Shown one piece after another: positions 16,253 to 21,854 of a stretch of 47,945 nt of DNA. The first letter of the stretch is position 1, and every line of letters begins with the position of its first letter. The notes below the pieces were generated by a model. It saw nothing but the letters and a program-made list of their open reading frames with translations, did not search any database and was not told the origin of the DNA. The DNA comes from Acidimicrobiales bacterium. Its GTDB lineage: Bacteria; Actinomycetota; Acidimicrobiia; Acidimicrobiales; AC-9. The DNA lies in the NCBI GenBank assembly GCA_036270875.1, contig DATBBR010000064.1:1-47945 (forward strand), in the 5' to 3' direction. Position numbers and translations under genes: made by a program.

Positions 16253-17335
16253 TCAGGCCGTCGGCCGCTTCCAGGACACCCGGTGGTGCGCGACCTCTGC
16301 ATGGTGGTCCACGCCGTGGCCGTCCGCGGGGTCGACGTGCACCAGGGCCGAGGTGAGCCGGGGGACGTCGTGCAGCAGCGCGTGCCGGGCCTGCTCGGCG
16401 ATGTCGTGGCCCTCGCTCACGGTGAGCTCGCCGCTCACCGCCACTTCCGCCTCGGCCCAAAGGGCGTGGCCGATCCAGCGTAGGCGCAGGTCGCCGACAC
16501 CTCGAACACCGGGCACCGCAGCGAGGACCGACGCGCAGCGGTCGACCAGCTCGGGCTCCACGGCGTCCATGAGCCGACGAAACACATCCCGCGCCGCCTC
16601 CCGCCCCACCAGGACGATGGCAACGGTGATCGCCAGCCCGGCGATCGGATCGGCCAGACGGAAGCCGGCCGCCACGCCCGCCGCGCCCAAGAGCACTGCC
16701 AGCGAGGTGAGGCCGTCGGTACGCGCGTGGAGCCCGTCCGCGACCAACGAGGCCGAGCCGATACGGCGTCCGACCGTGATGCGGAAACGAGCCACCCATT
16801 CGTTCCCCAGGAACCCCAGCACGGCGGCGGCAGCCACGGCGCCGAGCAGCTGCACGTGCTGGGGATGCAACAACCGGTTCACCGACTCGTAGCCGGCAGC
16901 GACGGAGGAGGCGGCGATCGCGGCCACCACGGCCAGCCCGGCGAGGTCCTCGGCGCGCCCGTAGCCGTAGACGTAGCGGCGACTCGGCGGCCTGCGGCCC
17001 ACGAGGAATGCCAGCCCGAGGGGGACGGCCGTCAGAGAATCGGCCAGGTTGTGCAGGGCGTCTCCCAGCAGGGCCACCGATCCGCTCACGAGGAAGACGG
17101 CCAGCTGGGCCGCAGCTGTCAGCGCCAGGCCGAACAGAGAAAGCCGCACCGCCCGCATTCCTTCCCGGCTTCCCTGGAGGACCTGGTCGACCTCCCCGAG
17201 GGCTCCGTGCGAGCCGTGCGCAGGGTGGGCGTGGTGCGCGTGGTGCGCCATCAGCTCGCCCAGGCGACCGATCCATCCCCGCCGACCGTGGTCGTGGTGC
17301 GGGTGCCCGTCGCCGCTGTGGCCACGCGTCCCCAT
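16253..17335 (-). CDS. cation diffusion facilitator metal exporter
   Basis: A CDF-family proton-coupled exporter of Zn2+, Co2+, Fe2+ or Cd2+, 360 residues. The N-terminus is very His-rich (HPHHDH at 11-16, HHAHHAHPAH at 31-40), suggesting metal sensing or loading. Six membrane segments follow. The transport-site motifs are intact: DALHNLAD with His95/Asp99 in TM2 and DGLHARTDG with His203/Asp207 in TM5. The C-terminal cytoplasmic dimerisation domain (about 260-340) has HVDP and a final His-rich stretch. Divergent from the P-type ATPase at 17595, with a 259-bp shared gap that holds a palindrome; the two are probably co-regulated. Confidence 0.93.
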   Translation of the reverse strand: MGTRGHSGDGHPHHDHGRRGWIGRLGELMAHHAHHAHPAHGSHGALGEVDQVLQGSREGMRAVRLSLFGLALTAAAQLAVFLVSGSVALLGDALHNLADSLTAVPLGLAFLVGRRPPSRRYVYGYGRAEDLAGLAVVAAIAASSVAAGYESVNRLLHPQHVQLLGAVAAAAVLGFLGNEWVARFRITVGRRIGSASLVADGLHARTDGLTSLAVLLGAAGVAAGFRLADPIAGLAITVAIVLVGREAARDVFRRLMDAVEPELVDRCASVLAAVPGVRGVGDLRLRWIGHALWAEAEVAVSGELTVSEGHDIAEQARHALLHDVPRLTSALVHVDPADGHGVDHHAEVAHHRVSWKRPTA

Positions 17336-17594: not shown

Positions 17595-20500
17595 GTGCGG
17601 CCCGTGACAGACCTCGTCGGCCAGGCCGTCGACCTCGGTGCCCATCAGGTGGCCGCGGTGCGCCGGCAGCTCCATGGATCCGGCCGGGCGCACCGTCGCA
17701 GCTGGGTCGGCAACGGCCGGGCTCACATCGAGGTGCGGGCCGTCGACCGTTCCACTGGGCAGGCGCTGGCCCGTCGGATCGAGCACGATCTCGAGGCCAT
17801 AGGGGGTGTCGACTGGGCCACGGTCAACGCCGTGCTGGGTCGGGTCGTCGTCGCTTTCGACGAAGACGAGACCCCTTTCGACAGGCTGCTGGCCACGGTC
17901 GAGGCCGCCGAGATGGCCTGCGACGTGGCCCAGGAGCAGTTCCCGCGCGACCGCCCTCCGCTCCCTGGCGACTCGGAGCCCCTGCTCCGCAACCTCACCG
18001 CCCTCGGCGCCGACACGGTCGGGCTCGGCGTGAGCGTGTTCGGCCAGATCCTCCGGACAACTCCGATCCCAGGCGAGCTGGCCTCGGTCATCGCCCTGGC
18101 GGACAGCCAGCCGCGCGTCCGCCACCTCCTCGAGAGCCGCATCGGCTATCCCGCGACCGACCTGGGGTTCGCCCTGGCCAGCGCCCTCGCCCAGGCTCTC
18201 GGCCAGGGACCGCTGGGTCTCCTGGTGGACATGGGTCACCGGGCGAACCTCGTGGGAGAGATCCGGGCCCGCCAGCGAGCGTGGGACAGTCGAGAGCCGG
18301 AGCTCGTCGCCCAGAAGGGACGCCCACCCGTCCCGCCGATCGAGACACGAGGACGCCCCACCGCCCTGCCCAGAGGTCCGGTCGAGCGGCACGCCGATCG
18401 CGCGTCCCTGGCCGCCTTCGGCGTGTTCGGACTCTCGTTCGCGGCCACGAAGGACCCGCGGAGAGCGGCCAACACGTTGATGGCGGCGGCACCGAAGGCC
18501 GCCCGTCTCGGAAGGGAGGCGTTCGCCGCTCGGCTGGGGCGCGATCTGGCCAACCGTGACGTCATCGTCCTCAACCCTTCCGCCCTCCGCCATCTCGATC
18601 GCATCGACACGGTCATCGTCGACCGCTCGGCCGTCTGGGGCGAGCGGACCCTCGACCCACTCGCTGACGCCTTCGTCGCCCGCGTGCGCGACGCCGGCTA
18701 CAGCCTCGTCGTCTCCGGCGTCGACCGACAGGGTCGGCTCCGCCTCGGTGCCGAACGCTCCATTCCCGGGGGCGCCGAGCTGGCCGGCTCCATCCGCTCA
18801 CTGCAGCGTGAGGGTCGGGTCGTCGCCTGTGTCTCGGCCACCGCCGACGCCGCGCTGCGGGCCGCTGACTGCGGGATCGGCCTGACGAGGCCGTCCTCTC
18901 CCCCGCCGTGGGGCGCCGACCTGCTCTGCGGCCGGGGCCTAGAGGCGCCGTGTCGCATCGTCGAAGCCGCCGCTGCGGCGCGGCTCGCCAGCCGTCGTAG
19001 CACGCTCCTGGCCGCCGGCGGGTCGGCGATCGGTGCCGTCGGCGTCCTGCTCGGACCCGGTCGGGGCGCTGCACAGCGAGGCCTGCTCCCGGTCAACGCC
19101 GCTGCCCTCCTCGCCGAGGCGGCCGGGACCTGGTCGGCGGCCGAGGTGGCACGGCGGGCCCGCCCGGTGCCGAGCGGCCTGCCGGACTGGCACGCCATGG
19201 GGATCGAAGAGACCCTCACCGCCCTGGGGAGCTCCCGCACCGGTCTGACCAGGGCGGAGGCGGCGAAGCGGGCGGCAACCGCCGCCGACAACGCCGCCAT
19301 GCAGGGGTCGTCGAACCTGGCATCGGCCCTCGTGGCGGAGCTGGCCAACCCTCTCACTCCCCTGCTCGCCCTTGGCGCCGGGCTGTCTGCGGCCGTCGGG
19401 TCCGTCATGGACGCCGCGCTGGTGGGAAGCGTCGTCGCCATCAACGCCGGCATCAGTGCCGCCCAACGGCTGCGGACCGAGCACTCGCTGGAGGAGCTCA
19501 CCCGGACGACGGCGGTGAAGGCGACGGTGGCCCGAGGGGGAGATCTCGTCGAGGTGCCGGCCGACGTGCTCGTCGTCGGCGATGTGGTGCGGGTCACCGC
19601 GGGCGAGGTCGTCCCGGCCGACTGTCGGCTGCTCGAGGCGGCGTGGTGTGAGGTCGACGAGTCCAGCCTCACCGGCGAGTCGCAGCCCGTGGCCAAGGAC
19701 CCGGAGCCGGTTCCCGACGGCGCCGTGGCCGAGCGCCGCTCCATGTTGTACGCCGGCACCACGGTCGTCGCCGGCAGCGCCCTGGCCGTTGTGGTGGCCA
19801 CCGGGACGGCGACCGAGGCGGGTCGCAGCGTGGCGAGCGTCGGCGATCCTCCGCCCAGCGGCGTCGAGGCTCGCCTCCACGCGCTCACCATGGCCACCCT
19901 GCCCGTGACGCTCCTCAGCGGCGCTGCCGTCGGCACCATGGGCTTCCTCCGGCGCCGCCCCCTTCGTGAGTCGGTGGGATCGGGCGTGAGCCTCATGGTG
20001 GCGGCCGTACCCGAGGGATTACCGCTGCTCGCCAGCGTGGCCCAGCAGTCAGCCGCCCACCGTCTCTCCCAGCACGAGGCGCTCGTTCGCAATCCGCGCA
20101 CCATCGAGGCTCTCGGCCGGGTCGACCTTCTCTGCTTTGACAAGACCGGCACCCTGACCGAGGGCAGGATCGGCTTGCAGCGAGTCTCCGACGGCATCGT
20201 CGACGAGGCCGTGGACGCCCTCGGACCCGGCCGCAGGGCGGTGCTGGCGGCGGCGCTGCGAGCCAGCCCACGCCCAGGAGACGGCGAGGTGCTCACTCAC
20301 GCCACCGATCGGGCAGTGGTCGACGGTGCCGCCGCGGTCGGCGTCGCCGCTGGCGACGGCCTGGGCGGCTGGGAACCGGAAGGTGAGCTGGCGTTCGAGC
20401 CCGGCCGGGGCTTTCACGCCGTCCTGGGTCGAGCCCCGGACGGTTTCCGGATCGCGATCAAGGGTGCCCCGGAGTCGGTGCTGGCGCGCTGCAGCGCCTA

Positions 20501-21854
20501 CCGAGGCCCGGGTGGCGGTCGTCAGCCGCTCGACCGGCGCACTCGGAAGCGGCTCGATGCCGAGGTCGAGCGGCTCGCCCAGCAAGGCCTGCGGGTGCTC
20601 GCGGTCGGGGAGCGACGCTCGACTGGTGCCGACGAGCTCGAGGAGGACCAGCTGCGCGACTTCGAGCTGCTGGGCTTCGTCGCCCTGGCGGACCTCGTCC
20701 GCTCGACGGCCGCCGCCGCCGTTCGCACCCTCCGTCGCGCCGGTGTCGATGTGGCCATGATCACGGGGGACCATCCGAGCACCGCCGAAGCCATCGCCTC
20801 CGAGCTGGGCATCCTCAACGGCGGACGCGTCCTCACCGGACCCGACCTCGAACGGCACGGCGAGGCCGAGCTGGATGGCGCAATCTCCGACGCGACCGTG
20901 TTCGCCCGTGTGACCCCGGCCGACAAGGTGCGCATCGTCGAGGCCTTCCAGCGGACGGGGCGCGTGGTGGCGATGACGGGCGACGGTGCCAACGACGCCC
21001 CGGCCATCCGGCTCGCCAACGCGGGGATCGCCCTCGGCCGACGGGGCACCCCCGCCGCCCGGGCCGCGGCCGACCTCGTCGTGACCGACGACCGCATCGA
21101 GACGATCATCGACGCCATCGTCGAGGGCCGGGCCATGTGGGCCAGGGTGCGGGACGCCCTGGCAATACTCGTCGGCGGCAACCTCGGCGAGGTGGCCTTC
21201 ACCCTGGCCGGGACTGCGATCGCCGGGCGATCCCCCCTCAACGCCCGCCAGCTGCTGCTCGTCAACCTGCTCACCGACATGGTGCCGGCGATGGCCATCG
21301 CCCTCCAGCCTCCGGAGAAGACCTCGCCCGAGGCCCTCCTGCACGAGGGACCCGAGGCGTCCCTCGGCGCAGCCCTCACCCGCCAGATCGCGCTGCGGGC
21401 GGCCACGACGGCGGGCGGGGCCACCGCCGCCTGGCTGGTGGCCAGCGGCACCGGCCGCCCGACCAGGGCCCGGACCGTCGGCCTGGTCGCCGTCGTCGGC
21501 ACCCAGATGGGTCAGACCATCGTGGCCGGCAGGCGCAGCCCGGCCGTCATCGCCTCGGCCCTGGCCTCGGCCGGGCTGCTCGTGCCCATCATCCAGGTCC
21601 CGCCCCTCAGTCGGTTCTTCGGGTGCACTCCTCTCGGGCCCGTCGGCTGGACCACCGCCGTCGTCTCGGCGTCGGCTGCAACGGGGGCGTCCATCGCCGT
21701 GCCGTGGGCGGCGTCGCGGGTGTTGGGAAGCCGGTCCCGCCCGGCGTCGAATCCTCGGGCCGATCAAGAGTCGGAGGGTGATCACGGCCCAGGCGACGAA
21801 CAAGAGGTCACCAGTCGTCGCCGCAGCGCGTCGCCCTCGTCGGCGTCAGGGTGA
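17595..21854 (+). CDS. giant P-type ATPase with an N-terminal pseudo-pump half (CtpI-like)
   Basis: 1419 residues, nearly twice a normal P-type ATPase. Residues about 38-110 resemble a heavy-metal-associated domain without its CxxC. Residues about 120-520 resemble a second, decayed pump: where a working one has DKTGT, this reads VIVDRSAVWGERT (Asp343), with no TGES or GDGxND. From about 540 the C-terminal half is complete: TGES 693-696, PEGLP 806-810 in TM4, DKTGT with Asp849, KGAPE from Lys956, MITGDHPSTA, and GDGANDAP 1129-1136, then the last membrane helices. PEGLP in TM4 points to type II (Ca/Mg-like) ions, not Cu/Zn. M. tuberculosis CtpI is a comparably long relative. GTG 17604 is an alternative start. 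Confidence 0.92.
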   Translation: MRPVTDLVGQAVDLGAHQVAAVRRQLHGSGRAHRRSWVGNGRAHIEVRAVDRSTGQALARRIEHDLEAIGGVDWATVNAVLGRVVVAFDEDETPFDRLLATVEAAEMACDVAQEQFPRDRPPLPGDSEPLLRNLTALGADTVGLGVSVFGQILRTTPIPGELASVIALADSQPRVRHLLESRIGYPATDLGFALASALAQALGQGPLGLLVDMGHRANLVGEIRARQRAWDSREPELVAQKGRPPVPPIETRGRPTALPRGPVERHADRASLAAFGVFGLSFAATKDPRRAANTLMAAAPKAARLGREAFAARLGRDLANRDVIVLNPSALRHLDRIDTVIVDRSAVWGERTLDPLADAFVARVRDAGYSLVVSGVDRQGRLRLGAERSIPGGAELAGSIRSLQREGRVVACVSATADAALRAADCGIGLTRPSSPPPWGADLLCGRGLEAPCRIVEAAAAARLASRRSTLLAAGGSAIGAVGVLLGPGRGAAQRGLLPVNAAALLAEAAGTWSAAEVARRARPVPSGLPDWHAMGIEETLTALGSSRTGLTRAEAAKRAATAADNAAMQGSSNLASALVAELANPLTPLLALGAGLSAAVGSVMDAALVGSVVAINAGISAAQRLRTEHSLEELTRTTAVKATVARGGDLVEVPADVLVVGDVVRVTAGEVVPADCRLLEAAWCEVDESSLTGESQPVAKDPEPVPDGAVAERRSMLYAGTTVVAGSALAVVVATGTATEAGRSVASVGDPPPSGVEARLHALTMATLPVTLLSGAAVGTMGFLRRRPLRESVGSGVSLMVAAVPEGLPLLASVAQQSAAHRLSQHEALVRNPRTIEALGRVDLLCFDKTGTLTEGRIGLQRVSDGIVDEAVDALGPGRRAVLAAALRASPRPGDGEVLTHATDRAVVDGAAAVGVAAGDGLGGWEPEGELAFEPGRGFHAVLGRAPDGFRIAIKGAPESVLARCSAYRGPGGGRQPLDRRTRKRLDAEVERLAQQGLRVLAVGERRSTGADELEEDQLRDFELLGFVALADLVRSTAAAAVRTLRRAGVDVAMITGDHPSTAEAIASELGILNGGRVLTGPDLERHGEAELDGAISDATVFARVTPADKVRIVEAFQRTGRVVAMTGDGANDAPAIRLANAGIALGRRGTPAARAAADLVVTDDRIETIIDAIVEGRAMWARVRDALAILVGGNLGEVAFTLAGTAIAGRSPLNARQLLLVNLLTDMVPAMAIALQPPEKTSPEALLHEGPEASLGAALTRQIALRAATTAGGATAAWLVASGTGRPTRARTVGLVAVVGTQMGQTIVAGRRSPAVIASALASAGLLVPIIQVPPLSRFFGCTPLGPVGWTTAVVSASAATGASIAVPWAASRVLGSRSRPASNPRADQESEGDHGPGDEQEVTSRRRSASPSSASG

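Follow-up and report, generated by a model that had tools for sequence, protein, structure and literature searches.

A double P-type ATPase, probably of the CtpH/CtpI family: an active P2-type pump fused to a pseudo-pump of probable P1B descent

What is the large N-terminal half of a double-length P-type ATPase, and why is it kept? The question is raised by a gene at 17595..21854 (+) of the window, the whole 47,945-nucleotide stretch of DNA that was analysed. The gene is one open reading frame with a GTG start and encodes 1419 amino acids, compared to ~900 in the nearest normal relatives. The position of the start codon is uncertain by ~20 codons because the frame stays open for 22 codons upstream of the GTG and no obvious ribosome-binding site was seen near the start. 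The product unites two P-type ATPases in one chain and is a probable member of the CtpH/CtpI (FUPA24, TC 3.A.3.24) family; as the open reading frame, Pfam, profile comparison and AF2 modelling indicate, a P1B-derived pseudo-pump is fused in it to an active P2-type pump. The identity of these parts is well supported, and their function is inferred.

CtpH and CtpI have been described as P-type ATPases of about twofold length with catalytic motifs only in the C-terminal part and a large N-terminal segment (PMC3573892), and a 2023 review treats them as uncharacterised proteins that stand apart in the phylogeny and may make up a P-type ATPase family of their own (PMC10654040). Within the literature searched, we found neither a description of a fused pseudo-P-type ATPase nor experimental work on the N-half of any family member. 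Queries for FUPA24, and for pseudo-ATPase combined with P-type ATPase, had no match in a body of text from which most subscription articles are missing, the Saier FUPA paper among them, and this negative is therefore weak. Pseudo-enzymes are well known among kinases.

The active C-terminal half

The functional P-type motifs of the protein are confined to its C-terminal half, as in FUPA24. The active P2-type pump spans residues ~532-1376 (19188..21722, +), as delineated by Pfam, motifs and PDB relatives, and matches E1-E2_ATPase, Hydrolase, Cation_ATPase_N and Cation_ATPase_C, all above the Pfam cut-off. A sequence-only reading of this DNA had placed every catalytic motif here, and all of them are found on the + strand: TGES (residues 693-696, 19671-19682), DKTGT (849-853, 20139-20153), KGAPE (956-960, 20460-20474) and GDGANDAP (1129-1136, 20979-21002). 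These ~845 residues also keep the cation-site residues that Ca2+ pumps have in M4, M5 and M6, namely PEGLP in M4 (806-810, 20010-20024, +), the N and E of GGNLGE in M5 (21174-21191, +) and the N/T/D of LLLVNLLTD in M6 (21252-21278, +). The PEGLP glutamate is present in 90/90 C-halves of the homologues and the M6 N/T/D in 87-88 of 88.

The closest solved structures are those of the Listeria Ca2+-ATPase (LMCA1) and SPCA1. With these and SERCA, that is with the P2A Ca2+-ATPases, the C-half shares PEGLP, GGNxGE, NLLTD, TGES, DKTGT, KGAPE and GDGAND; the protein differs from them in the pseudo-pump fused in front, and its substrate is a prediction from motifs. On this reading of the motifs the active half is likely to transport Ca2+ or Mn2+, and it would work as an exporter of Ca2+, possibly of Mn2+. 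Ca2+-dependent ATPase activity or transport has been stated for CtpH (PMC9180918).

The N-terminal half and its P1B ancestry

Residues ~36-523 are a catalytically dead P-type pump. It opens with an HMA-like domain (residues ~36-115; 17700..17939, +) that forms a strand-helix-strand-strand-helix unit in the model and matches Pfam HMA (PF00403) at E=0.0038, weaker than the Pfam cut-off. It corresponds to the metal-binding-like domain without cysteines of the sequence-only reading; it lacks CxxC, which occurs in 0/95 homologues. Four helices follow, MA, MB, M1 and M2 (residues ~128-238; 17976..18308, +), assigned from AF2 and hhalign; M2 carries E222, which hhalign aligns with the M2 glutamate of P1B pumps. 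In place of the actuator (A) domain, hhalign, AF2 and motif counts find a short linker (residues ~239-261; 18309..18377, +). Helices M3-M4 (residues ~262-320; 18378..18554, +), positioned by residue counts and by the P-to-D spacing, contain P300-K301-A-A-R304; the spacing of 43 residues is the same in P1B pumps and in the C-half. The pseudo P-domain (residues ~338-445; 18606..18929, +) keeps D343 and has lost KTGT, GDGxND and the N domain, the latter being reduced in other homologues. Helices M5-M6 (residues ~450-519; 18942..19151, +) are seen in AF2, and the alignment of the N-half with its own C-half reaches this far. In the AF2 model, the pseudo-pump retains the HMA-like domain, eight helices and the P-domain, with the actuator and nucleotide domains gone.

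The loss of catalytic chemistry extends across the family. DRSAVWG (343-349) stands where DKTGT should, as first noted from the sequence, and the absence of the actuator TGES, likewise anticipated, was borne out: TGE[SAP] and DKTGT are found in 0/95 N-halves, and the lysine of DKTGT never appears at its alignment column. The one GDGxND match among the 95, in L044, falls within a stretch that was translated although it precedes the gene, and it was rejected as an artefact. The path of decay is visible because the divergent homologues L183-L188 still carry an actuator remnant, with DGLPTPV for TGEPLPV, and have DGPRVLT where DKTGTLT would stand.

The likeness to P1B ATPases was recovered by profile and structure methods, a PDB search with the N-half sequence having returned nothing significant. 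Profile-profile comparison by hhalign matched the N-half to P1B pumps with 98.2% probability (E=3e-14, 473 columns) and to its own C-half with 97.4% (E=9e-12), and five column-shuffled controls gave 0.0-0.3%. The N-half HMM also matches ordinary ~700-950-aa pumps across Actinomycetota, with E values down to ~1e-16. The sequence-only reading had staked itself on a P-type ATPase-like fold for this half, and the AF2 model (pLDDT 89, pTM 0.88) has one: its best 11 Foldseek matches in the PDB are all P1B ATPases (ATP7B, CopA, HMA4, ZntA). The layout said to match that of the C-half is thus a genuine P-type layout, but it is closer to a P1B pump and lacks both the A and N domains. A tandem duplication of one pump was rejected, since the N-half aligns over its full length with P1B pumps, whereas its alignment with the C-half of the protein covers no more than the stretch between the P-domain and M5/M6.

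The N-half shares with CopA, ZntA and ATP7B the order HMA-like domain, MA-MB-M1-M2, M3-M4, P-domain, M5-M6, the M2 glutamate and the M4-to-Asp spacing, whereas it lacks the A domain, N domain, CxxC, CPx, DKTGT and GDGxND of these pumps and has Lys/Arg in place of the CPx cysteine. Fold and topology here speak for descent and not for function; as judged from its sequence, the N-half cannot work as a P1B pump. We are nearly certain that a P1B heavy-metal ATPase, by loss of the A domain, the N domain and the phosphorylation chemistry, gave rise to the pseudo-pump that makes up the N-terminal ~490 residues. This gives the N-half an identity.

Retention of the pseudo-pump and its possible roles

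The N-half is dead yet not decaying. It is under purifying selection, with a dN/dS of 0.22 compared to 0.18 for the C-half between the window protein and its same-genus homologue L038, and values below 0.45 in all 18 pairs, so that the earlier term "decayed pump" holds for catalysis and not for sequence. Position 301 in M4 is basic in 95/95 homologues (K87/R8), position 300 is P94/A1 of 95, E222 is invariant (95/95) and D343 is kept in 90/95. Among close relatives the fusion is obligatory: every C-half relative scoring above 700 bits is either a long form or truncated by a contig end, and the next ones (≤567 bits) are ordinary ~900-aa pumps. The halves are inherited together, with N- and C-half distances correlating at r=0.95, a value reached in 0/2000 permutations. 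The loss of all catalytic motifs and of two domains would fit functionless evolutionary debris, but the dN/dS of ~0.2, the invariant columns and the lack of any close relative without the N-half reject this reading in essence and leave it hardly credible.

Such long preservation suggests that the dead half may control or support the working half. Purifying selection is expected of any folded structural domain and is, alone, no proof of regulation. The N-half could serve purely structural ends, as a scaffold or as an aid to folding and targeting; it would then receive no signal and would simply pair with the active half in a pseudo-dimer that keeps the latter stable in the membrane. Its strongest conservation lies in the membrane-proximal stretch from M4 to the P-domain (mean major-residue frequency of 0.63 for residues 261-345, compared to 0.52-0.55 elsewhere in the N-half), and the missing CxxC leaves no conserved ligand site in evidence. 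A near-invariant charged signature (P-K-A-A-R, E222, D343) and an HMA-like domain, however, exceed what a scaffold needs, and the N-half occurs twice as a protein of its own, with no active half attached, which also weighs against the cis role favoured below; we hold a pure scaffold to be possible at best. As a sensor, the N-half would take up an ion or nucleotide at its HMA-like domain or its pseudo P-domain and so act as an on/off switch for the active half, which appears rather unlikely: the HMA-like domain is kept and D343 persists despite loss of the remaining phosphorylation motif, which may leave residual Mg2+ or ligand binding, but cysteine ligands are lacking and the nucleotide-binding N domain is missing or reduced.

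The residue at position 301 sits exactly at the ion-ligand position of active pumps, which is Cys in P1B and Glu in P2. Since an invariant Lys/Arg occupies the site of the transported ion, the pseudo-pump would be non-transporting, and it would not hydrolyse ATP either. The same charge makes a passive or coupled ion path, with transport through both halves as in KdpA/KdpB, very improbable; an eight-helix bundle fused in cis and the match of E222 to the P1B glutamate speak for such a path, while the active half has a full cation site of its own and the pseudo-pump helices are poorly hydrophobic. M2 and M4 in particular fall clearly short of the active half's helices in hydrophobicity, which counts against assured membrane insertion. 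Earlier topology work on CtpH/CtpI disagreed over the number of membrane segments (PMC3573892), and eight weakly hydrophobic helices are a possible explanation.

We favour, on balance, an exporter of Ca2+ (or Mn2+) that is regulated or scaffolded in cis by a pseudo-pump which itself transports nothing; that this cis role is the reason for the retention of the N-half is about an even call. Like a built-in subunit, the pseudo-pump would lie alongside the active half within the membrane, and its HMA-like and pseudo P-domains might contact the domains that the active half exposes to the cytoplasm and bias the E1/E2 cycle of that half. A model of both halves (residues 32-1230) reached a pTM of 0.75, which is only moderate and does not settle their packing. 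The alternatives named by the sequence-only reading, to regulate, scaffold or sense, become testable because specific positions are invariant, including the Lys/Arg that replaces the ion ligand in M4; with a candidate partner protein also named (below), the role of the N-half can be addressed directly.

Relatives and gene neighbourhood

The Mycobacterium-like homologues L191 and L192 are likewise built of two halves and have the P-[K/R] motif; they score 332 and 270 bits against the N-half HMM and 963 and 810 bits against the C-half HMM. Synteny and an EsxB-like neighbour make them candidates for CtpI/CtpH, and L192 may be the ctpH locus, as its xthA-152aa-pump-93aa order suggests. The window protein differs from CtpH/CtpI of Mycobacterium in its Acidimicrobiia-like genome, its shorter length and the loss of a ~90-residue remnant after the pseudo phosphorylation site, which most homologues keep. 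No full homologue was found in the plasmid collection.

Many homologues have a small neighbour, a ~90-aa hydrophobic-hairpin protein, which probably joins the complex in these relatives; none was found next to the pump gene of the window. More tentatively, the CtpH/CtpI group might form a distinct P-type ATPase family whose hallmark is a P1B-derived, ion-mimicking pseudo-pump (the invariant Lys/Arg standing for the transported ion) that is fused to a P2 calcium-type pump and assembles with this hairpin subunit. The two pumps would then be an obligate active/inactive pseudo-dimer, in which the dead partner sets how the live pump cycles through its conformations. A CDF transporter lies near the window gene at 16253-17335; L038, from the same genus, is the only other locus to share it, and it was dropped as a neighbourhood clue. 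All 46 HMM matches of the small membrane protein sit within ~1.4 kb of a pump, and one is fused to it.

Fold and origin of the N-terminal half

The giant pump gene (17595-21854, + strand) encodes 1419 residues, and the motifs listed in the sequence-only reading were all found in place. Its start codon is placed to within ~20 codons; the upstream frame is open for 22 codons, no obvious ribosome-binding site was noted upstream of the gene, and the conserved alignment of the family starts near residue 30. The Pfam families E1-E2_ATPase, Hydrolase, Cation_ATPase_N and Cation_ATPase_C match residues 532-1362. Residues 1-523 have no Pfam match above cut-off (an HMA match at residues 59-105, E = 0.0038, falls under the HMA cut-off) and no significant match in the PDB by plain sequence search.

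A profile of this N-terminal half and one built from 21 P1B heavy-metal ATPases align along 473 columns (98.2%, E = 3e-14), from the HMA-like domain, skipping the A domain, to the end of the P-domain. Compared with the profile of its own C-terminal half, it scores 97.4% (E = 9e-12), the match being confined to the stretch from P-domain to M6. Five column-shuffled control profiles gave 0.0-0.3%. The AlphaFold2 model of the half (79 homologues; pLDDT 89, pTM 0.88) displays an HMA-like domain, helices MA, MB, M1 and M2, a short linker at the expected A-domain position, M3, M4 (broken), a small P-domain of Rossmann type that lacks an N domain, M5 and M6. Its best Foldseek matches in the PDB are ATP7B, CopA, HMA4 and ZntA (lowest E, 6e-7). 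Because the profile alignments, the model and the structural matches agree, the N-terminal half is a P1B-derived pseudo-pump joined in front of a P2 pump. The earlier proposal of a decayed pump is thus borne out as to the pump-like fold, which is P1B-derived; a decayed twin of the C-terminal half is ruled out by the differing extents of the two profile matches.

One divergent clade (L183, L184, L185, L186 and L188) represents evolutionary intermediates. Its proteins carry two HMA-like domains each and a still recognisable A-domain remnant, e.g. AGERTPLAAEVIEGTG...DGLPTPVAPG, which lacks TGES and corresponds to PGERxPxDG...TGEPLPVxKxPG of active P1B pumps. At their phosphorylation site, DKTGTLT is replaced by DGPRVLT (by DDPRALT in L183), and SDNANAAAAF or similar occupies the GDGxNDAPAL position. 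The ~90 residues past the pseudo-phosphorylation site, kept in most other homologues, are lost in the window protein and in those closest to it.

The protein belongs to the known family FUPA24, CtpH/CtpI. In the part of the literature covered, we found no paper naming the N-terminal segment a P1B pseudo-pump, and this reading may be the new part.

Conserved residues and the ion sites of the two halves

Residue conservation was counted in 95 aligned N-terminal halves, mycobacterium-like and divergent members included. TGE[SAP] and DKTGT each occur in 0 of 95; a single GDGxND match was discounted, as it sits in a translated stretch that precedes a gene. Glu222 is invariant (95/95), and Pro300 and Asp343 are found in 94 and 90 sequences, respectively. 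Position 301, one residue past the M4 proline that lies 43 residues ahead of Asp343, is Lys in 87 sequences and Arg in eight; at ungapped spacing PK occurs 80 times and PR eight times, the other seven being off by one residue. The equivalent M4 positions are P-E in 90 of 90 C-terminal halves spanning the site, where the Glu is the Ca2+-pump glutamate, and P-C (19) or P-H (2) in the 21 P1B pumps. On these counts, every dead half carries a positive charge in place of the ion-binding residue of live pumps. In the profile alignment, Glu222 matches the conserved M2 glutamate of P1B pumps, which is the metal-entry glutamate in LpCopA.

Hydrophobicity is lower in the N-terminal helices than in the helices of the active half, most markedly in M2 and M4, which makes their insertion into the membrane putative. 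This weak hydrophobicity could account for the disagreement among published topology predictions for CtpH/CtpI (PMC3573892).

The nearest solved relatives of the C-terminal half are the Listeria Ca2+-ATPase and SPCA1. PEGLP in M4, GGNxGE in M5 and NLLTD in M6 are found family-wide; M8 reads Gln, whereas SERCA has Glu there. We infer from these residues that the active half exports Ca2+, possibly Mn2+.

Selection and linkage of the halves

Between the window gene and its same-genus homologue L038, dN/dS is 0.22 for the N-terminal and 0.18 for the C-terminal half, and the N-terminal value is below 0.45 in all 18 independent pairs. The N-terminal half evolves ~1.6x faster than the C-terminal half, and the pairwise distances of the two are correlated (r = 0.95; Mantel, 0/2000 permutations). 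In a C-terminal-half search of 246 genomes, which revealed no loss of the N-terminal half, all matches above 700 bits were long-form or cut off at a contig end, with ordinary ~900-aa pumps following at <=567 bits. Since the distances are correlated and only long or contig-broken forms exceed 700 bits, the fusion is ancient. Stand-alone N-terminal halves occur at L095 (7803-9338, +, 512 aa) and L117 (2060-3766, +, 569 aa), and neither locus contains an active half; each assembly also holds a full-length copy (L093 and L083, respectively).

The dead half, devoid of the requirements of the P-type cycle, is conserved and, in close relatives, inseparable from the active half, on which it would act in cis. 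The model of residues 32-1230 has a moderate pTM of 0.75, which is compatible with a defined packing of the halves and is no proof of it.

Distribution and a candidate partner protein

Scanning GTDB genome contigs with the N-terminal half gave 80 loci, mostly Acidimicrobiia-type MAGs, along with Actinomycetospora, Actinomadura, Streptomyces, Sinomonas, Nitriliruptoria-type MAGs and MAGs labelled Lujinxingiaceae and Polyangiaceae. High-scoring matches occurred in ~30 of 396 drawn Actinomycetota genomes; the lower-scoring ones were ordinary 700-950-aa pumps. A second full-length copy, the paralogue L035 (on G000:C137; 1499 aa frame), is present in the genome of the window (2.99 Mb, 155 contigs); it shares 53% identity with the window protein across residues 347-1370.

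A ~90-aa protein with two hydrophobic segments (a hairpin) and the core FYGGLAA...G.IDWPLA..IGAGV, matching no Pfam family in any of 20 members checked, is a likely partner of the giant pump. It adjoins the pump in 39 of ~99 loci (among them L041, L050, L061, L064, L065, L071, L078, L091, L101, L192, L194, L197 and L201), and is fused to the pump's C-terminus in L197. All 46 HMM matches, counted in loci extending up to ±8 kb, lie within ~1.4 kb of the pump. The window copy has no such neighbour; in the same genome the small protein follows the second paralogue (G000:C137:128-259). Some genomes also hold pump-distant copies (G426:C127:198650-198892, G000:C32:2365-2589).

A cation diffusion facilitator (CDF) transporter gene (16253-17335, − strand) is divergent from the window's pump gene, a neighbour common, among the loci compared, to the window and same-genus L038 only.
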